Of a stretch of 64,000 nucleotides of DNA, positions 18,236-25,798 are shown piece by piece. The stretch comes from Pseudarthrobacter sp. ATCC 49987 (GTDB lineage Bacteria; Actinomycetota; Actinomycetes; Actinomycetales; Micrococcaceae), in NCBI RefSeq assembly GCF_009928425.1, contig NZ_JAABNS010000001.1, forward strand, positions 2,108,001-2,172,000, written 5' to 3'. The position numbers and the translations under genes are program-made. A model generated the notes under the pieces. The model saw nothing but the letters and a program-made list of their open reading frames with translations, searched no databases and was not told the DNA's origin. The stretch's first letter is position 1. Every line of letters begins with the position of its first letter.

Positions 18236-18586
18236 ATGGACATTCTCAAATATCTTCTGGTATTCCTGCACATCCTCGGCGCCGCCGCGATCGTCGGTGG
18301 CTGGTTCGCCACGTTCAAGAAGCCCACGGTCCTGCCGGTGCAGCTGTACGGCGCCATTGCGCAGCTGGTCACCGGGCTGGCACTCGTAGGGATCGCGGGC
18401 GCCACCCACGATCCGCTGAACTACGGCAAGATCGCCGTCAAACTGGTGATCGCCATCGTTGTGCTGGTCGCCGCTGTAATCGGGTACCGCAAGGCAACGT
18501 CCGGTGCGGGCGTTCCCAAGGGCCTGGCACACGCCGTCGGCGGGATGGGACTTATCAACATCGCAGTCGCCACCCTCTGGCAGTAG
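18236..18586 (+). CDS. Small four-helix membrane protein
   Basis: The 116-residue protein has four hydrophobic segments and few charged residues outside loops. It opens MDILKYLLVFLHILGAAAIV with a conserved-looking His in the first helix. This type is common in Arthrobacter relatives and has no known function. TAAGCT lies 6 nt before the ATG and there is no Shine-Dalgarno, so the mRNA is probably leaderless. A strong hairpin follows, so it is probably monocistronic. Confidence 0.75.
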   Translation: MDILKYLLVFLHILGAAAIVGGWFATFKKPTVLPVQLYGAIAQLVTGLALVGIAGATHDPLNYGKIAVKLVIAIVVLVAAVIGYRKATSGAGVPKGLAHAVGGMGLINIAVATLWQ

Positions 18587-18612: not shown

Positions 18613-18656
18613 CGACGACGGCGACGCACCCCGCATGGGGAGCGTCGCCGTCGTCG
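18613..18656 (+). terminator. Hairpin terminator
   Basis: Perfect 15-bp arms (CGACGACGGCGACGC and complement) enclose an inner CCCC-GCAT-GGGG stem, 26 nt after the stop codon. Confidence 0.8.
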
Positions 18657-18788
18657 TTCAAGGGATGGTCACAATCCACTGACAGCGGAACCCCGGTGCG
18701 GCGCCGGCGCTGAATCCCTAGGATGGGACACGGCACGATCCGGCGCTGCGCCGGTTCCGTGGCACGACAACAATCTTGAGGAGTGGAC

Positions 18789-19217
18789 ATGGCAGCAACA
18801 CGCACCGCACACACTGTATGGAACGGCGACCTGATGACCGGCGCCGGCAACACCACGCTGGACAGCTCGGACCTGGGCAACTTCGACGTCACCTGGAAGG
18901 CGCGGGCCGAGGCCTCCGAGGGCAAGACCAGCCCGGAAGAACTCATCGCCGCGGCACATTCGGCCTGTTTCTCCATGGCCTTCAGCCTCGCCGTCGCCCA
19001 GGCCGGCCACACCCCCGAGGAAGTCAACACCAAGGCGGATGTCACCTTCGTACCCGGCACCGGCATCACGGACAGCCACCTGACCGTCAGTGCCCGGATC
19101 CCGGGGATCACGGAGGACGAGTTCCAGCGCATCGCTGAGGAAGCCAAGGTCGGCTGCCCCGTCTCAGCCGCCCTCACCGGCATCAAGATCACCCTGGACG
19201 CCACCCTGGCCTCCTAG
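18789..19217 (+). CDS. OsmC family peroxiredoxin-like protein
   Basis: The 142-residue protein has the two OsmC cysteines, in AAHSACFSMAFSLA and KVGCPVSAALTG. OsmC proteins reduce organic hydroperoxides through this cysteine pair, often with lipoylated proteins as reductant. The ATG at 18789 has GAGGAG 5 nt upstream; a GTG 6 nt earlier lies inside that ribosome site. The terminator that once followed is now split by an insertion of two IS elements, so transcripts may run into the IS30 element antisense to its transposase. Confidence 0.9.
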   Translation: MAATRTAHTVWNGDLMTGAGNTTLDSSDLGNFDVTWKARAEASEGKTSPEELIAAAHSACFSMAFSLAVAQAGHTPEEVNTKADVTFVPGTGITDSHLTVSARIPGITEDEFQRIAEEAKVGCPVSAALTGIKITLDATLAS

Positions 19218-19231
19218 CGCCCCACGCGCCA

Positions 19232-19264
19232 ACGGCGAAGGCCCCCGTTCCCTGCTGGTCAGGG
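19232..19264 (+). other. Left half of the split osmC/tricorn terminator
   Basis: The arm ACGGCGAAGGCCCCCGT (19232-19248), then T and CCCTG-CTGGT-CAGGG, is the left side and tip of a hairpin. Its matching arm is at 22173-22189. The two were adjacent before the insertion. Confidence 0.85.
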
Positions 19265-19279
19265 CGGTTTCTAGGGGTC

Positions 19280-20751
19280 GTTGCAACACCGGGTGGTTAG
19301 GTGGTTAGTAGTAGATCACGTAGACGCTCGGCTGGGGTATCCCAGCCGAGCGTTTTGCGTGGGCGGCCGTTGAGCTCCTGGGCGACGTGTTCGAGGTCTT
19401 CAGGTCCGTAGGCGGACAGGTCGGTGCTTTTGGGGAAGTACTGGCGCAGCAGCCCGTTGGTGTTCTCGTTCGAACCGCGCTGCCAGGGGCTGGCTGGGTC
19501 GCAGAAGTAAACCTGCATTTCGGTGGCCAGGGTGAAGGTCTTGTGGGCGGCCATTTCCGCGCCCTGGTCCCAGGTCAGAGAGCCTCGCAGATGTGCCGGC
19601 AGGGCAGAGATGGTGTTGATGAGCCCGTCCCGGACGGTTTCGGCGGTGTGGTCATTTGGCAGGTGGACGAGCATCACGTAGCGGGTGGTGCGTTCGACCA
19701 GGGTTCCGATCGCGGACTGGTTGTAGGCGCCGGTGATGAGATCCCCCTCCCAATGGCCGGGTACTGCGCGGTCCTCGATCTCGGGTGGACGCTCGGAGAT
19801 CATGACCATCGGATCCACCAACCGGGAGGTGCGCTGTTCCCCGCTCTGGTGGTGTTTCCGGCGGGTCCGGCCTGTGCGCAGCGCGGCCTGTATTTCGCGT
19901 TTGAGTCCGCCTCTGGCCTGGACGTAGAGGGCTTGATAAATCGTCTCTGGACTCACACGCATCTCCGGTTGGTCGGGGAACTTTTTGACCAGGGTGTGGC
20001 TGATCTGCTCCGGAGACCAGCGTATGAGCAGCTTGGCCTCACATAGTCGCGCAGGTCCGACTCGCCAGCGAGCTTGGCGGTTTTGGGTCGTGCCCGCCGG
20101 GCAGCGGCCTTCCGCTGCGCCCCGTGGGGCAGATAGCCCAACAGGGCATCGGCATTTCGGCCCAGCTCGCGGCTGATCGTTGAAGCCGAACGGCCAAGCG
20201 CGCTGGCGATCGCCCGCATCGACGAACCCGAGGCTTTCAGGTCCCGGATCATCTCCCGCTCCTGCACGCTAAGAAATCGCGGGTCGATGAGTTTCTCGAG
20301 AGCCGCTGTCGGTGGGGCGAGGGCCGGCGAGGTCATAGTGGTCACACCACGTTTGTAATCGACCACCCGCCCATCAGCGTAAATGCGTCGGCCGCCTGAC
20401 TTACGAATCCCCAGGTCCCACTCCGCCGCGGTCCTGGTATGCACGCTGACCGCTGCGGCCGCCTCCCGCCGACTCAAGCCGGCCTTGCGTAACCGGAAGT
20501 ACTCATCCCGGCCCCGGTGGGGGCGCGCCCCCGGTTTACCATGGCTCTTCAGTCCGGCTTTACGCACCCAGCCGGCGCACGTATCGGGGCTCAATCCCAG
20601 CTCCCTGGCCGCCGCCCCCGTGCTCTTGAGCCGGTCGAACACGACGAAGAACTCATCCTTCTGCTCCTGTGCGTACTTCCTGTTGGTTCGAGGTTCTCCC
20701 GTTAAAGACGACACGGTCGTTGCAACTCCCAAAAATTCTGGGTGTTGCGAC
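19280..20751 (-). mobile_element. IS30-family insertion sequence
   Basis: Terminal sequences GTTGCAACACC (19280-19290) and, inverted, GTCGCAACACC (20741-20751) differ at one base and bound about 1.47 kb holding a single transposase frame on the minus strand. The right end also forms a hairpin with a third copy of the GTCGTTGCAAC motif, which could block incoming transcripts. The exact ends and the target duplication are not certain. It abuts the IS110 element. Confidence 0.75.
19297..20714 (-). pseudogene. IS30-family transposase, one-base frameshift
   Basis: Two overlapping frames make one protein of about 472 residues. The N-terminal part has helix-turn-helix regions (VQEREMIRDLKASGSSMRAI, then ALGRSASTISRELGRN). 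After LAGESDLRDYV the frame is lost at about 20037-20043, where one added base would restore a continuous reading (VEAKLLIRWSPEQISHTLV). The C-terminal DDE core is intact: EGDLITGA, TWDQGAEM and NENTNGLLRQYFPK. The likely start is GTG at 20714; the frame extends to 20909 but that lies beyond the terminal repeat. Programmed slippage cannot be excluded, but there is no homopolymer slip site at the break, so decay is more likely. Confidence 0.8.
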
Positions 20752-21045
20752 TGTGAGTATTGGTTGTAGCTGGTCTGGGACTGGCTGGCAGGATAGATAT
20801 CGGCCGTTCCATCCCGTGGACGTGACTCCTGTTGCGACTGACCCCCAGGTGTCATTCGATCGACTTGTCCGTCCATCGGGGTGGTCCGGCCGGCACCTGT
20901 CCGGCCCACCTCGGTAGCTTGATCAGAAGATTGTCCACCCCTTGCGGGGCGTGACCCATCACAGTGCTGTTCCTTTGGTGACCTCTACCCGGACTGGCGC
21001 TGGCCGGTGACGGCCATGACCACATCCGTGAAGAGGAAGGTAGGA
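20752..21045 (+). ncRNA. Candidate IS110 bridge RNA region
   Basis: This stretch between the IS30 end and the transposase start has no convincing gene. In IS110-group elements the left non-coding end encodes a structured bridge RNA whose two loops pair with target and donor DNA. Visible structure includes a stem GGGGTGG/CCACCTC around a repeated TCCGGCC (about 20874-20912), and a CCCC-TTGC-GGGG hairpin near 20937-20950. GCTGGTCTGGGAC (20769-20781) resembles the reconstructed empty target GCTGGTCAGGGGAC. RNA ends and fold are not determined. Confidence 0.4.
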
Positions 21046-22125
21046 ATGACCGCCATGTCTATCGTCGCGCATGCCCATCCATTTGTCGTGGGTGTCGACA
21101 CGCACGCCCGAAACCATGTTTACGCCATCCTCGACGCCACCAACGGCGCACTACTGGATACGCAGTCATTCCCCACCACCACAGCCGGGATCAACCGGGC
21201 CATTAAATGGATCGCACGCCGCACCAACGCCGACGCAGACACCCTCTGGGTCATCGAAGGAGCCGCATCCTACGGAGCGATCCTCGCCGGCACCGTGGCA
21301 ACCCACGGATTCCCAGTCGCCGAAGCGCCGCGCATGGATGCCAAGAAGCGCCGTGGCGTGGGCAAGTCCGATGCCCTGGACGCCCACCAGATCGCCATGG
21401 CCGTTCTGCCCCTGCCGGTGGACAAGCTGCGCCGACCACGCCTTCATGACGGGGTCCGCCAGGGCGTGCGGATCCTGGTCACAGCGCGGGGGTCCATGAG
21501 CAAGGACCGGACCCGGTCGGTCAACGCGCTCAACGCCCTGGTGCGGGGCAATGACCTGGGCATCGATGCCCGCCAGAAGCTCACAGGCGCCCAGATCACC
21601 GAGGTCTCAAAGTGGCGTTCCCGCGAGGAAGAGCTCGCCTTGTCCATCGCCCGTGCTGAGGCCGTGCGGCTGGCCAAACACGTCCTGGCGCTGGATGAGC
21701 AACTCACGGCCAACGAGAACCAGCTGGACGAGCTGGTGAAGGTCAGCGATGCCGCACCCTTGCTGGAGGAGACGGGGTTCAGGGCGATCAGCGCCGCGAA
21801 GTGCCTCGCCGCGTGGTCGCACGAAGGCAGAGTCCGCAACGAGGCAGCATTTGCCTCCCTGGCCGGGGTAAATCCGATCCCCGCGTCCTCCGGGAACACT
21901 GTCCGCCACCGCTTGAACCGGGGCGGTGACCGGTCCCTGAACAGCGCCTTGCACATGGTCGCGGTCGTCAGGATGACCCATGATGGCGAAACCCGCCAGT
22001 ACGTGGCAAAGCGACGCGCCGAGGGTCGTACGGACAAGGAAATTCGTCGTTGCACCAAACGCTACCTGGCCCGCCGCATCTACCGCACGCTCAGCGCGGC
22101 GGCAATAGCGATAAACGCGGCTTGA
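21046..22125 (+). CDS. IS110-family transposase (DEDD recombinase)
   Basis: The 359-residue protein has the N-terminal RuvC-like DEDD domain: Asp in FVVGVDTHARN, Glu in LWVIEGAASYG, and Asp residues in GVGKSDALDAHQ. The C-terminal Tnp domain has NPIPASSGNTVRHRLNRGGD with the conserved serine. Such enzymes exchange DNA guided by a bridge RNA encoded in the same element. The ATG at 21046 has AGGAAGG 5-6 nt upstream; an in-frame GTG at 21007 lacks one. No disabling mutation is seen, so it may be active. The TGxG turn before the C-terminal domain reads ETGFRAISAA, slightly off the usual form. Confidence 0.9.
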   Translation: MTAMSIVAHAHPFVVGVDTHARNHVYAILDATNGALLDTQSFPTTTAGINRAIKWIARRTNADADTLWVIEGAASYGAILAGTVATHGFPVAEAPRMDAKKRRGVGKSDALDAHQIAMAVLPLPVDKLRRPRLHDGVRQGVRILVTARGSMSKDRTRSVNALNALVRGNDLGIDARQKLTGAQITEVSKWRSREEELALSIARAEAVRLAKHVLALDEQLTANENQLDELVKVSDAAPLLEETGFRAISAAKCLAAWSHEGRVRNEAAFASLAGVNPIPASSGNTVRHRLNRGGDRSLNSALHMVAVVRMTHDGETRQYVAKRRAEGRTDKEIRRCTKRYLARRIYRTLSAAAIAINAA

Positions 22126-22162
22126 CAGACATAGAAGAGTCGACCGCTAGAACCCAAGCTGA

Positions 22163-22189
22163 TGGTCAGGGGACGGGGGCCTTCGCCGT
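22163..22189 (-). other. Right half of the split osmC/tricorn terminator
   Basis: TGGTCAGGG (22163-22171) repeats 19256-19264 directly, and ACGGGGGCCTTCGCCGT (22173-22189) is the exact complement of the left arm at 19232-19248. This is the host sequence where the insertion ends. Confidence 0.85.
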
Positions 22190-22240: not shown

Positions 22241-25200
22241 CTAGTGTCCGGCCTGGCGGGCCGGCAGCGGTGCCGGCTTCACGCGGCGGTAGCCCTCGCG
22301 CAGCGGCGGCCGGTCGGTGGGCAGCTCCTGGATCATTTCCTTGAGCGCTCCAATGCCGTATTCCAGCTGCGGGTCGGTGCCGGCGGCGTAGGCGTGCGGC
22401 GGGAAGGTGACTTCGATGTCGGGGGCAACGCCGAAGTTCTCGACACCCCACCCCACGCCTCCGGAGAACCAGGTGGCGTAGCGCGGCTGCGTCACGCCGG
22501 TCCCGTCAGCGAGGGCGAAGCGGTTGTCGATGCCCACGACGCCGCCCCAGGTCCGGGTGCCGATGACCGGGCCGATCCCCCGCAGTTTGGAGACCTGGGT
22601 GATGATGTCGCCGTCGGAGCCGGCGAATTCGTCGGTCAGGATGATGACGGGACCGCGCGGTGCGTGGTGCGGATAGGTCCGCGGCTTCTCCCCGCGCGGC
22701 ATGCTCCAGCCGGTGACCTTGCGGCCGATGAGTTCCGCGACGAGCTGGGAGGTGTGCCCTCCCCGGTTGCGGCGGACGTCGACGATCAGTCCGTCGAGGG
22801 CTGTTTCGGTGTCGAGGTCGCGGTGGAGCTGGGCCCAGCCGTTGGCCATCATGTCGGGGATGTGCAGGTACCCGAAGGTTCCCTGCGAGGCCTGCCGGAC
22901 CGTCCGGCGGTTGGCGGCCACCCATTCCTGGTACCGCAGCCGCTCCTCGTCGCGGACCGGGACCACGGCGACCCGGCGCTGCTGCCCGGCCTGGCTTCCG
23001 TGCCCGGCGCCGTTGCACAGGGTGAGCTCGACGGCGCGTCCCGCGGCGCCGACCAGTTGCATGGCGGGGGTGCGCGCTTCGGTGAGTTCCACGCCGTCGA
23101 TCGCCAGCAGCACGTCGCCGGGTTTCGCATCAGCGCCCGGGCGGGTCAGCGGCGAGGTGGCGAGCGGGTCGGAGGACTCCCCCGCGAGGATCCGGGTGAT
23201 CTCCCAGCCCCCGCCCGTGAACGCAAGGTCGGCGCCGAGCCGGCCCTGGCCGTTGCTGCCGTTCTCGGTGACGGCGGCCGGACGGACGTAGGCATGCGAG
23301 GTGCCCAGCTCGCCGTGGAGCTCCCAGAGCAGGTCCACGAGGTCGTCATGCGAGCCCAGGCGGTCCACAATCGGACGGTAGCGGGCGTGCACCGAATCCC
23401 AGTCCTGCCCGGCCATGTCCTCCGTCCAGAAGAAGTCGCGCTGGAGCCGCCAGGCTTCATCGAAGGCCTGGCCCCAGACGCTGAGCGGGTCGAGCTGCAC
23501 GCGGATGCGGCTGAGGTCCACCTTGACCAGCTGGCCGGACTCCTCGTCAGCCTTCGCGTTGGCGGGCGAGACGCGGATCTGCTTGTCGTGCAGGACCACG
23601 ACCTTTTCGCCGTCGCCGGAGAGCCGGTAGCTGTCGGCGGCGTCCACGATGGTGCTGGTTTTGCGCCGGGCCAGGTCGAAACGGACAAGGGAGGGTGCAG
23701 CGTTTTTGTCCTCGAGGCTGGCGCGGCCCTCGCCGGTGACCCCGGAGAGCTCGCTGTCGAGCCAGAGCAGCGCCCCGGCAGTGGCGGTGAGGGCGGAGTA
23801 GTTTCCCTGCGGCACGGGCACGCTGATGACCCGGTGCGCGAGGCCTTCGGCATCGACCCGGACCGCGGGAACCGGGTCCTTCACTGTGCCGTCCGCGGCG
23901 TCAGTGGCAGAAGTGGCTGCGGCGTCGGCGTCCTCGGGCAGGTCAACACCCGGGCCGAACGGCGAGGGGGTGTCCGCGGCGAGGGCGACGAGATAAGGCT
24001 TGATCGGGCTCGGGAAAGACAGGTCGAAGGAGTGCCCGTCGTAGACCGGGTCGAAGCTGCGGTTGGAGAGGAAGGCGAGGTACTTGCCGTCGGGGGTGAA
24101 CGACGGCGATTCGTCCCGGAAGCGGCCGTCGGTGACGTCGATGATGGTGCGCGTCCCCTCCGCTGCGGCGTCGTCGACCGCGGTGAGGCGCAGCCGGCTG
24201 CGGGAGCCGAAGGAGGTGACCGGCTCGGACCAGCCGAGCCAGGCCGAGTCCGGGGACCAGCTGAAGCCTTCGATGCTGCCCTCGCCGATGCTGCTCACGA
24301 GGGACAGCGTGCCGGTCCGGGTGTCGGCGAGGTAGATGTCACCGAATGCGGTGCCGACGGCCAGCCAGTTGCCGTCCGGGCTGGCCTCGATGGCGCTGGC
24401 CCGCGACGGCCTGGGAAAATCGATCCGGGTCAGCTCGGGGGACGCGCCGTGCTGCGCCGGGGCATTTCCCTCCGCCGGCCCGGCGGTGTCTGCGGCGTCG
24501 ACGGTGGATTCGGCGGTGGCGTCAACGGTGGCCGTGCGGCCGGTTCCCGCCGCGGATGGTGCCGGGACCGCGGCCACGGCGTCACCCCGGATAAAGGACG
24601 CAGCCGGGACGGGCCTGGGCAGGGATGTGCCGGCGTCGGAATCCGCGCCTGGCAGGGCTGGATTCTGCGGCGCCGGGACGGCCGGGGAATACTGCGCTCC
24701 GACGCCGAGGGGCGCCGCGATTGCCTTCAGGTACAGGGCTTCGACGCCGTCGTGGTCGGCAACGTAGGCGATCCGGCCCGCGCCGAAGGGGCGGGGCAGG
24801 CGTGCCCGGACGCCGGGGGTGGCTTCCAGGACGCGCGAGGGACCGTCCTTGTGCCGCAGCCAGTGCAGGGTGCCGTGGGCCTCCACGGCGCTGGAGCCGC
24901 CGGTGCGGTCCGGAACCACGTCGCCCAGATGCCGTGACGGCTTCAGCGGCGCGGCGCGGCGGGCCTGGGAGGCGGATCCCAGGGAGATCCCGAGTTTGAC
25001 GGCGTCCGCGCCGAGGTCCGGCAGCAGCCACAGCTCACCGGCCGATTCGAAGACGACGCGCCGGCCGTCGGTGGCGGCGTGCCGGACGTAGAAGTCCTCG
25101 TGGTCCGTGTGGCGGCGCAGATCGGAACCGTTGGGCAGCACAGAGTACAGGTTGCCGTAGCCCTCGTGGTCGGACAGGAAGGCGATCCGGCCGTCGACCC

Positions 25201-25798
25201 ACATGGGGTCGGTCAGGTTGCCGTCCAGCTCGGCGGCGAGGCGTTCGAATTCGCCGTTTCCGTCGGCGTCGATCCACAGCTTGCCGGCGGCCCCACCCCG
25301 GTAGCGCTTCCACCATGCCGGCTCCCGCGAGAGCACGCTGGCGAGGACCACGGGGCGCTCGTCGCCGACGACCGGCCCGAACGCGACGGATTCCACCGGT
25401 CCCAGCGGGAGTTCAGTGGCCCAACCGCCCGTGACGGGCAGGCTGTAGGCGTGGGTGTGCCGGCTGTCGGCCTGGCGGAAGGCGCTGGTGACCAGGACGT
25501 CGCCGTCGGGGGTGAAGCCCTTGACCCTGGTAGTGGCGTGGCCGAAGTAGCTCAACTGGCGGTAGCCGCCGCCGTCGACCTCCGCGGTGACAACTTCCGG
25601 GGACGTTCCCTGGACGACCGTCCACACCAGCCGCTTGCCGTCCGGCGTGAAGCGGGGGTTGCGGGCGGGCAGCTGCAGCGAGGAAACGCGCCAGGCGCGG
25701 CCCCCGCCGAGGGGCGCAATCCAGACGTCGTCCTCGGCCACGAAAGTGACCAGATCGCCGTGCAGATGCGGGAAACGGAAGTAACTCGAAGAGGTCAT
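22241..25798 (-). CDS. Tricorn protease homologue (S41 family)
   Basis: The 1185-residue protein matches tricorn in length and order. The N-terminal 700 residues are beta-propeller repeats (for example GNLYSVLPNGSDLRRHTDH and SPDGNWLAVGTAFG). A tricorn C1 segment is followed by a PDZ domain (about 905-960, GDVLLAIDGVEL) and the C-terminal S41 protease core. The nucleophile Ser near 1062 sits in TDEFAGSDGDIITQ, preceded by GLIVDVRRNRGGHTSQL. Tricorn cuts oligopeptides released by the proteasome. An Ala/Pro-rich linker at about 390-440 interrupts the propellers. The start ATG has TATGAT 6 nt upstream and no Shine-Dalgarno. Confidence 0.9.
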   Translation of the reverse strand: MTSSSYFRFPHLHGDLVTFVAEDDVWIAPLGGGRAWRVSSLQLPARNPRFTPDGKRLVWTVVQGTSPEVVTAEVDGGGYRQLSYFGHATTRVKGFTPDGDVLVTSAFRQADSRHTHAYSLPVTGGWATELPLGPVESVAFGPVVGDERPVVLASVLSREPAWWKRYRGGAAGKLWIDADGNGEFERLAAELDGNLTDPMWVDGRIAFLSDHEGYGNLYSVLPNGSDLRRHTDHEDFYVRHAATDGRRVVFESAGELWLLPDLGADAVKLGISLGSASQARRAAPLKPSRHLGDVVPDRTGGSSAVEAHGTLHWLRHKDGPSRVLEATPGVRARLPRPFGAGRIAYVADHDGVEALYLKAIAAPLGVGAQYSPAVPAPQNPALPGADSDAGTSLPRPVPAASFIRGDAVAAVPAPSAAGTGRTATVDATAESTVDAADTAGPAEGNAPAQHGASPELTRIDFPRPSRASAIEASPDGNWLAVGTAFGDIYLADTRTGTLSLVSSIGEGSIEGFSWSPDSAWLGWSEPVTSFGSRSRLRLTAVDDAAAEGTRTIIDVTDGRFRDESPSFTPDGKYLAFLSNRSFDPVYDGHSFDLSFPSPIKPYLVALAADTPSPFGPGVDLPEDADAAATSATDAADGTVKDPVPAVRVDAEGLAHRVISVPVPQGNYSALTATAGALLWLDSELSGVTGEGRASLEDKNAAPSLVRFDLARRKTSTIVDAADSYRLSGDGEKVVVLHDKQIRVSPANAKADEESGQLVKVDLSRIRVQLDPLSVWGQAFDEAWRLQRDFFWTEDMAGQDWDSVHARYRPIVDRLGSHDDLVDLLWELHGELGTSHAYVRPAAVTENGSNGQGRLGADLAFTGGGWEITRILAGESSDPLATSPLTRPGADAKPGDVLLAIDGVELTEARTPAMQLVGAAGRAVELTLCNGAGHGSQAGQQRRVAVVPVRDEERLRYQEWVAANRRTVRQASQGTFGYLHIPDMMANGWAQLHRDLDTETALDGLIVDVRRNRGGHTSQLVAELIGRKVTGWSMPRGEKPRTYPHHAPRGPVIILTDEFAGSDGDIITQVSKLRGIGPVIGTRTWGGVVGIDNRFALADGTGVTQPRYATWFSGGVGWGVENFGVAPDIEVTFPPHAYAAGTDPQLEYGIGALKEMIQELPTDRPPLREGYRRVKPAPLPARQAGH

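Follow-up and report, generated by a model that had tools for sequence, protein, structure and literature searches.

IS4321 and IS5075, of the IS1111 type, are reportedly DEDD elements inserted in Tn21-family terminal inverted repeats (IRs), and IS1655 is said to make a 3-bp target duplication. For IS30 itself, the accessible part of one report describes insertion hot spots that are nearly palindromic (PMC9333248). ISPsy8, a member of the IS3 family, duplicates 3 bp on inserting at the axis of symmetry of a predicted REP hairpin, according to the available portion of its description (PMC1525189). In the bridge RNA of IS621 and in seekRNA, a pair of guides located in one internal loop specifies the left and right targets, as set out in the accessible sections of two reports (PMC11208160, PMC11187229). 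A literature search conducted mostly outside subscription journals returned nothing on point about IS30 in relation to terminators or hairpins.

The locus considered here lies in a 64,000-nucleotide stretch of DNA (the window). We regard it as very probably a two-layer nested element, in which an apex-seeking IS30 carries a bridge-RNA-guided IS110 and both transpose together.

Anatomy of the nested element and of its split hairpin

The features of the locus are collected in Table 1. A 1-base deletion near 20038 interrupts the window IS30 transposase gene, which reads as two ORFs here; the frame is open in the copies c2 and c4. The intact transposase matches the NCBIfam IS30 family NF033563 (E 9.8e-86) and carries HTH_38 and rve domains; its N-terminal helix-turn-helix (HTH) matches include PF13518 and a weak PF01527 (0.0048 in the c2 copy), a domain that also matches the N terminus of the IS30 relative L089 (3.5e-12). 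Membership of the IS30 family is also indicated by terminal IRs of about 24-28 bp in its own copies and in relatives, and by target duplications in the clade, mostly of 3 bp, though the window copy is without one. The inner element is assigned to the IS110 family by its DEDD and Transposase_20 recombinase domains and by a long structured 5' non-coding region whose guides match the targets, the right guide by eye only. A lone IS110 copy, c3, is also 1390 bp long. An assignment of the outer inverted repeat, CGGTTTCTAGGGGTCG / CGACCGCTAGAACCC, to the ends of IS110 was considered and discarded, as intact IS30s show this repeat to be the IS30 IR. Nor is the arrangement a composite transposon: it holds one IS30 with IS110 inside its IR, and no two like flanking IS.

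Table 1. Coordinates of the nested element and its surroundings in the window
Feature	Position	Strand	Basis or remark
osmC	18783..19217	+	upstream convergent gene; ORF, Pfam OsmC PF02566
Split hairpin, left half up to element end	19232..19262	+	contains left 11-bp imperfect repeat 19252-19262
IS30-IS110 unit, 2.9 kb	19263..22158	.	ends from comparison with c2, c4 and intact IS30 relatives
IS30 3' terminal IR (GGCGGTTTCTAGGGGTCGTTGCAACACC)	19263..19290	.	comparison with copies and relatives
IS30 transposase gene	19297..20708	-	extent of 470-aa match plus stop
IS30 5' terminal IR, inner part (GGTGTTGCGAC; c2/c4 GGTGTTGCAAC)	20741..20751	.	left target of IS110
IS110 element, 1390 bp, TGTGAG...GAAGAGTC	20752..22141	+	NCBIfam NF033542 IS110 family RNA-guided transposase
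IS110 5' non-coding region (predicted to encode a bridge RNA)	20752..20966	+	conserved stems, two-sided internal loop
Predicted left target guide TGTTGCGAC	20830..20838	+	agreement with left targets
Predicted right target guide CGATCG	20857..20862	+	target CGACCG, other strand, 1 mismatch; by eye
IS110 DEDD transposase/recombinase ORF	21007..22125	+	ORF, Pfam, NCBIfam
IS30 5' terminal IR, outer 17 bp (GACCGCTAGAACCCAAG)	22142..22158	.	separated from remainder by IS110
Split hairpin, right half	22159..22189	+	contains right 11-bp imperfect repeat 22159-22169
Tricorn-like protease gene	22241..25798	-	convergent with osmC; ORF, Pfam

The initial annotation of this DNA had proposed that a hairpin was split by the insertion. 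Its two halves, 19232-19248 and 22173-22189, are indeed exact reverse complements (17/17), and joining the flanks rebuilds the hairpin as it had been described, with 17 bp, a T-G pair and CCCTG/CAGGG around a 5-nt loop. A repeat search detected a longer inverted repeat of 49 nt and 80% identity (19232-19280 / 22141-22189), whose inner part consists of both IS30 ends. Simple arithmetic gives a chance expectation of about 0.0004 exact 17-nt inverted pairs per 3.8 kb; the empty sites of congeners constitute a stronger biological control. The island-free junction separates convergent osmC and tricorn genes in all 24 same-genus genomes fetched, and a hairpin was recovered there in 24/24 (self-alignment score of at least 9.5). 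Under a stricter criterion that allowed no gaps, 20/24 retained 10 bp or more, a few of these being a different hairpin. The empty site of the nearest relative, L002 (OsmC 99%), has the arms AAGGCCCCCGTTCCCTG/CAGGGAACGGGGGCCTT, of which the left is identical to that of the window. The DNA inserted in the loop between these convergent genes consists, as annotated, of two insertion sequences, IS30 and IS110.

The sequence TGGTCAGGG is found twice, at 19256-19264 and 22163-22171, and this 9-bp direct repeat was rightly called unusual because the IS30 clade mostly makes 3-bp duplications. When aligned to the element ends, the repeat measures 11 bp with 1 mismatch (19252-19262, CTGCTGGTCAG; 22159-22169, CTGATGGTCAG). 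An 8-nt one-sided excess, or an 11-bp duplication followed by one later change, would both fit this copy, which is without a 3-bp target duplication.

Target sites of the IS30 clade

IS30 loci were parsed at 128 positions (L088-L157, L207-L264). Removal of 22 loci without a pair of ends, 3 false matches of the own copies, 1 with a short flank and 2 duplicates, followed by addition of 3 own copies, left 103 sites; 44 distinct ones hold IS30s at least 65% identical to the window IS30, which define the clade. A rerun with wider spacing on 23 dropped loci (the 22 and the short-flank one) yielded ends for 12. Complementary flanks occurred in one of these (L111, 14.5), the scores of the other 11 ranging from 4.0 to 6.0. 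The low scorers include L230, a fragment at 79% identity with a doubtful 3' end (5.0); the rest are IS30s at 56-61%. Three incomplete loci (L105, L227 and L263, 81-87%) were left unscored. The three copies (82%) of G354, a genome of another species, were among the dropped loci and were read separately, giving flank scores of 10.5, 8.0 and 10.5, so that one unit of the three falls below threshold.

Complementary flanks, with a score of at least 9.5, are present at 42 of the 44 distinct clade sites, the exceptions being L122 and L249. Of 1025 points taken at random in these loci, 6 did so; cross-paired flanks reached this score in 7% of cases over all sites and in 19% within the clade. The insertion lies at most 5 nt from the predicted apex at 40/44 sites. 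Folding alone is a weak control here, since the apex falls near the junction for 91% of true flanks and still for 69% of mispaired ones. An exact 3-bp target duplication accompanies 33/44 insertions (null 2.9%) and an exact 4-bp one 5 more. Among more distant IS30s, 18 of 45 sites reach the threshold at 55-65% identity and 7 of 14 below 55%. Convergent neighbours surround 32/44 clade sites (the tricorn side of the window was scored as directed away despite its convergent gene, and was kept as scored), and at least one gene is directed toward the site at 43/44. In a divergent group of IS30s of about 390 aa only 3/18 sites are between convergent genes, and a group of 530-550 aa seems, by eye, to be located within other transposase genes.

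Convergent gaps should rank among the least harmful sites of a genome, and their frequency could reflect selection that removes insertions elsewhere, with no active choice by the element. We find this very unlikely: tolerance would scatter insertions over the gap, whereas they gather at the predicted apex, and random points of the same loci are rarely complementary. It is easier to conceive, although still somewhat improbable in our judgement, that IS30 reads a degenerate palindromic sequence and not a folded structure, terminators merely fitting this requirement. The classical hot spots, nearly palindromic in the accessible part of their description (PMC9333248), would provide a precedent, and the largest cluster of stem sequences holds 16 of the 44 stems, so that sequence preference could explain part of the targeting. 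Yet the stems fall into 21 clusters, and the columns of the clade sites carry 0.12-0.67 bit, mostly below 0.45, which amounts to little sequence consensus, while the hairpin arms pair at 64-98% per position (30-44% expected) and pairing remains high as far as about 15 positions from the apex. Moreover, the right flank of the same site is strictly the best partner in 29/44. Taken together, these data favor an IS30-family transposase that would place its element at the tip of long hairpins, duplicating 3 bp of the target, and would read the symmetry of the site and not a fixed sequence, possibly by recognising a cruciform or hairpin that has been extruded. Such hairpins lie mostly between convergent genes, where bidirectional terminator action is expected.

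The predicted IS110 guide and the IS30 terminal inverted repeat

The hairpin had initially been viewed as a possible programmed target of IS110. The insertion does look targeted, but IS110 is not what selects hairpins, since IS30 clade members without any IS110 are found at their apices. That IS110 itself picked the terminator hairpin, with IS30 arriving later in its end, is in its simple form refuted by these intact IS30-only copies, and we give it hardly any credence. Some IS110s do target REP palindromes, according to the available portions of two reports (PMC1525189; PMC11208160), and three of the four copies in G006 sit in imperfect palindromes (9.0, 10.5 and 9.0; the fourth 6.0). Against this, the ends of the window IS110 are nested inside the IS30 IR, its guide spells that same IR, and the lone copy c3 of the same genome has no hairpin (flank score 5.5).

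The predicted bridge-RNA region has a z-score of -3.8 (20770-20966), and its consensus fold places the left and right guides within one internal loop. Guides of 8 elements or groups, read by hand as 9-mers, match 56/64 bases of their own left targets, and the true assignment is the only one of 40,320 to reach that value. An automatic parse covering 48 of 55 loci, with 7 unparsed, gave 13 guides with a mean match of 6.2/8 against 2.7 when mispaired, and none of 200,000 permutations was as good; L065 and L066 were mis-parsed, and poor matches out of 8 were returned for L071 (5), L072 (3), L073 (5), L287 (4), L292 (1), L295 and L296 (3 each). One base distinguishes the guide from the IS30 IR in c2 and c4. 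The junction pattern has 16 matches in 206 genomes of the genus, of which 14, from 7 genomes, contain this IS110; the guide reads TGTTGC[A/G]AC in every one of these, and IS30 transposase sequence was detected at 9 of them. Genome contigs were also scanned for GTGTTGCAACTGTGAG, which occurs at 49 loci; at the cut-off applied, this IS110 is present in only two of them, L174 and L166, and the IS30-IS110 pair of L174 (IS30 59%) has a flank score of 5.0 and no hairpin.

Judging from sequence identity, IS30 and IS110 seem to transpose together as a single unit: in G354 an IS30-IS110 unit of 3083 bp occupies three sites with 0-1 differences. Separate entry of IS110 into each IS30 copy, the unit not being mobile as one, seems unlikely to us. 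IS110 is site-specific, and SNPs among the four G000 copies leave the matter undecided; but IS110 is located in the 3' IR in all three full G354 units and in the 5' IR in all three G000 units, the same IR being used within each species though both carry target-like sequence, and separate entries poorly explain the near-identity of the G354 units.

In the mechanism that we infer for the nested element, chemistry included, the target loop of the bridge RNA would be programmed to the IS30 terminal IR (TGTTGC[A/G]AC^GACC), and IS110 would insert there; the outermost 17 bp of that end would be retained. An IS30 with IS110 inside one IR would still be able to transpose as a unit, so that IS110 would be carried into terminators, which are comparatively harmless sites, to its probable benefit. 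We tentatively extend this to a bolder proposal, close to evenly balanced in our estimation: the IS30 DDE transposase would choose its target at bidirectional terminators by shape, hairpin or cruciform, its extra N-terminal OrfA-like HTH being the candidate reader, and an IS110 lineage repeatedly programmed to IS30 ends would act as a hyperparasite sparing the mobility of its carrier by means of the outer 17 bp.

Significance and comparison with known systems

The clade offers many natural sites where a DDE transposase appears guided by palindromy with little consensus, and whether transposases read DNA hairpins or cruciforms thereby becomes testable. The IS110 guide RNA appears directed at the end of another mobile element, and its two separately formed products (in the 5' IR in one species, in the 3' IR in another), both seemingly mobile, bear on guide RNA evolution and on the length of IS30 end required for transposition.

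E. coli IS30 and IS1655 belong to the same transposase family (NF033563) as the window IS30, and a short target duplication is common to both groups, of 2 bp in classical IS30 and mostly 3 bp in this clade. Unlike classical IS30, the clade occupies long hairpins with many different stems and little consensus, mostly between convergent genes. The extra N-terminal HTH matches of L089 and, weakly, of c2 presumably form a further contrast with E. coli IS30. Among these, PF01527 is shared with ISPsy8 OrfA, as stated in the available portion of its description (PMC1525189). ISPsy8 targets one repeated REP consensus, whereas the stems used by this clade, in 21 clusters of which the largest holds 16 of 44, do not correspond to a REP-targeting IS.

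With IS4321 and IS5075, the nested element shares a DEDD recombinase lodged in the terminal IR of another element; it differs in that the host is an IS30, the unit is present at several sites, and the inserted element is of the IS110 type, its long non-coding region being 5' and not 3' as in the IS1111 type. Subterminal IRs of the latter type (11-13 bp) were likewise not seen, none of 22 inverted pairs (minimum 12 nt) joining the ends of 20752-22141, a limit above the length of an 11-nt IR. The CT core of IS621 is not seen at the right junction of the window IS110 (GTC^GACC). Like IS621, this IS110 would carry its paired guides in one internal loop; unlike IS621, it is directed at the terminus of a different IS.

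The split hairpin and the nested elements

The two hairpin halves reported by the initial annotation on both sides of the IS30 and IS110 island, between the convergent osmC and tricorn genes, are exact in the sequence. At the junction without the island, the comparison it had called for, a hairpin lies between these genes in 24/24 same-genus genomes (self-alignment score of at least 9.5), with osmC and tricorn convergent in all 24; in the nearest relative (locus L002), the left hairpin arm is that of the window. Judging from their place, these hairpins would end transcription. The island is bordered by a direct repeat, exact over 9 bp and imperfect over 11 bp, where most relatives carry 3-bp duplications. 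Another terminator-like hairpin (CGACGACGGCGACGC...), downstream of an open reading frame, has a stem resembling the commonest IS30 target stem.

IS110 is placed within IS30 because the terminal inverted repeat (IR), intact in IS110-free IS30 relatives as GGTTCTAGCGGTCGTTGCAACACC, is interrupted by IS110 in the composite units. The broken repeat reads GTGTTGCAAC / IS110 / GACCGCTAGAACCCAAG in two further units of the same genome, c2 and c4, from which that of the window differs by one base (GTGTTGCGAC). Four copies of IS110, all nearly identical, and three of IS30 occur in this genome, arranged as three units (window, c2 and c4) and a lone IS110, c3. The arms around all three units are complementary but different, with flank scores, measuring the complementarity of left and right flanks, of 21.5, 19.5 and 15.0. 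The IS110 gene of c4 carries an internal deletion of ~93 bp.

Coordinates of features in the window
Feature	Position
Open reading frame upstream of the second hairpin	18236-18586
Second terminator-like hairpin	18613-18656
Direct repeat, left copy	19252-19262
IS30, including IS110	19263-22158
IS110	20752-22141
Part matching the c4 deletion	21759-21851
Direct repeat, right copy	22159-22169

Hairpin choice by IS30

The initial annotation proposed that IS110 seeks the hairpin. The split hairpin is real; the chooser, however, is on sequence grounds IS30, at least in the clade of elements at least 65% identical to that of the window. With the cut-offs applied, searches of the family, genus and order found IS30 relatives in 55/295, 28/206 and 8/396 genomes, a count that includes the genome studied here. 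After exclusion of rows with no end pair, false own-copy matches, short flanks or duplicates, 103 distinct sites were kept, 44 of them in the clade. Flank scores reached at least 9.5 in 42 and at least 12 in 39 of these 44 sites, versus 6 and 1 of 1025 random points in the same loci; flanks cross-paired between sites reached 9.5 in 7% of cases over all 103 sites and 19% within the clade. The strictly best partner was the site's own right flank in 29/44. We regard this flank test as the main evidence for hairpin choice because the apex test has a weak null: insertion lies at most 5 nt from the predicted apex in 40/44 sites, yet mispaired flanks fold too (69% vs 91%).

The target duplication is an exact 3 bp in 33/44 clade sites (null 2.9%) and an exact 4 bp in five others. 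By automatic ORF calling, 32/44 sites lie between convergent genes, and in 43/44 one or more genes are directed towards the site. Aligned at the apex, the sites hold 0.12-0.67 bit per column and pair at 0.64-0.98 per position, where column composition alone predicts 0.30-0.44; this alignment was made by folding, which inflates the pairing figure and leaves the unfolded flank test unaffected. The 44 stems form 21 clusters, of which the largest has 16 members. Outside the clade, a group of ~390-aa IS30s has 3/18 sites between convergent genes and 3/18 with complementary flanks (L143, L145 and L148), and less similar IS30s are mixed, the threshold being reached in 18/45 sites at 55-65% identity and 7/14 below 55%.

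Among three transposases scanned, the N-terminal HTH_Tnp_1 domain (PF01527) matched two stretches of a clade member (L089), c2 weakly and L145 not at all. The IS3-family element ISPsy8, whose OrfA contains PF01527, is reported to insert where a REP hairpin has its axis of symmetry, producing a 3-bp repeat, and gaps between convergent genes are described as prone to supercoiling (PMC1525189). An extruded hairpin may be read by HTH_Tnp_1 domains.

Several other IS30 loci deserve mention. Seven at 53-54% identity (L133-L137, L117 and L132, from G202, G103 and G245) have recurring stem sequences and flank scores of at least 9.5 in six. A group with CTTG/AAG ends and open frames of ~520-635 aa (L103, L104, L107, L112, L116, L131, L156 and L235-L238) apparently sits, by eye, mostly in other transposase genes and not in terminators; it includes very long complementary flanks (L103, 36.0; L237, 27.0). 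Two copies in G427 (L249 and L250) have 16 nt of left flank in common and different right flanks, which suggests recombination between copies.

The predicted IS110 guide and probable movement as a unit

Among IS110 relatives, a variable segment of the 5' non-coding region, right after G[T/C]GACTC, equals the flank at the element's own left target, for example TGTTGCGAC in the genome studied here, CAAAACGA in G006, TACAATCA in L064 and AACAAGAAC in L044. In eight hand-read elements or groups, 56/64 guide bases match, a total reached by no other of the 40,320 assignments. Automatic parsing of 48/55 loci, in which L065 and L066 were mis-parsed, yielded 21 distinct flank/guide pairs with 13 guides and a mean match of 6.2/8 versus 2.7 when mispaired (0/200,000 permutations as good). 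Poor matches, some due to a register shift, were those of L071 and L073 (5 of 8), L287 (4), L072, L295 and L296 (3) and L292 (1).

A genus-wide search with TGTTGCRACTRTGAG, which by design requires a left junction in the IS30 IR, gave 16 matches in 9/206 genomes: IS110 is present in 14 (7 genomes), only IS30 in one and neither in one. The guide is TGTTGC[A/G]AC in 14/14 matches with IS110. Nine of these contain IS30 transposase sequence, one as a remnant; of the other five, four have, by eye, an IS30-like outer end, and c3 has no clear one. Among the nine, L174 (in G454) is a unit outside a hairpin (score 5.0) with a distant IS30 (59%). The target chosen by IS110, via its predicted guide, is IS30 itself. 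Elsewhere, related IS110s with a TACAATCA-type flank (L064 and L293) seemingly lie, by eye, inside another transposase gene, another mobile element as target. The G006 copies (L065-L067) sit off-centre in imperfect palindromes of ~60 bp, different between copies yet alike at both ends.

Three units of 3083 bp occupy three sites in G354, with pairwise differences of 0, 1 and 1 and flank scores of 10.5, 8.0 and 10.5. Each of them carries IS110 in the 3' IR, and each of the three units in the genome studied here carries it in the 5' IR. The simplest reading is that the two units formed separately and that each then multiplied, in which case transposition would need no more than the outer 17 bp at one of the IS30 ends.

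Relation to known systems

Bridge RNAs are already known, as are palindromic hot spots of IS30 and the presence of IS110-type elements in the ends of transposons. Neither an IS30 clade located in terminator apices nor an IS110 programmed to the end of an IS30 was described in the literature searched, most subscription journals being outside it. In bridge RNAs, the guides are described as occupying opposite sides of one internal loop (PMC11208160). The predicted RNA of this IS110 resembles them in that, in the consensus fold, the left guide and the candidate right guide face each other across one internal loop.
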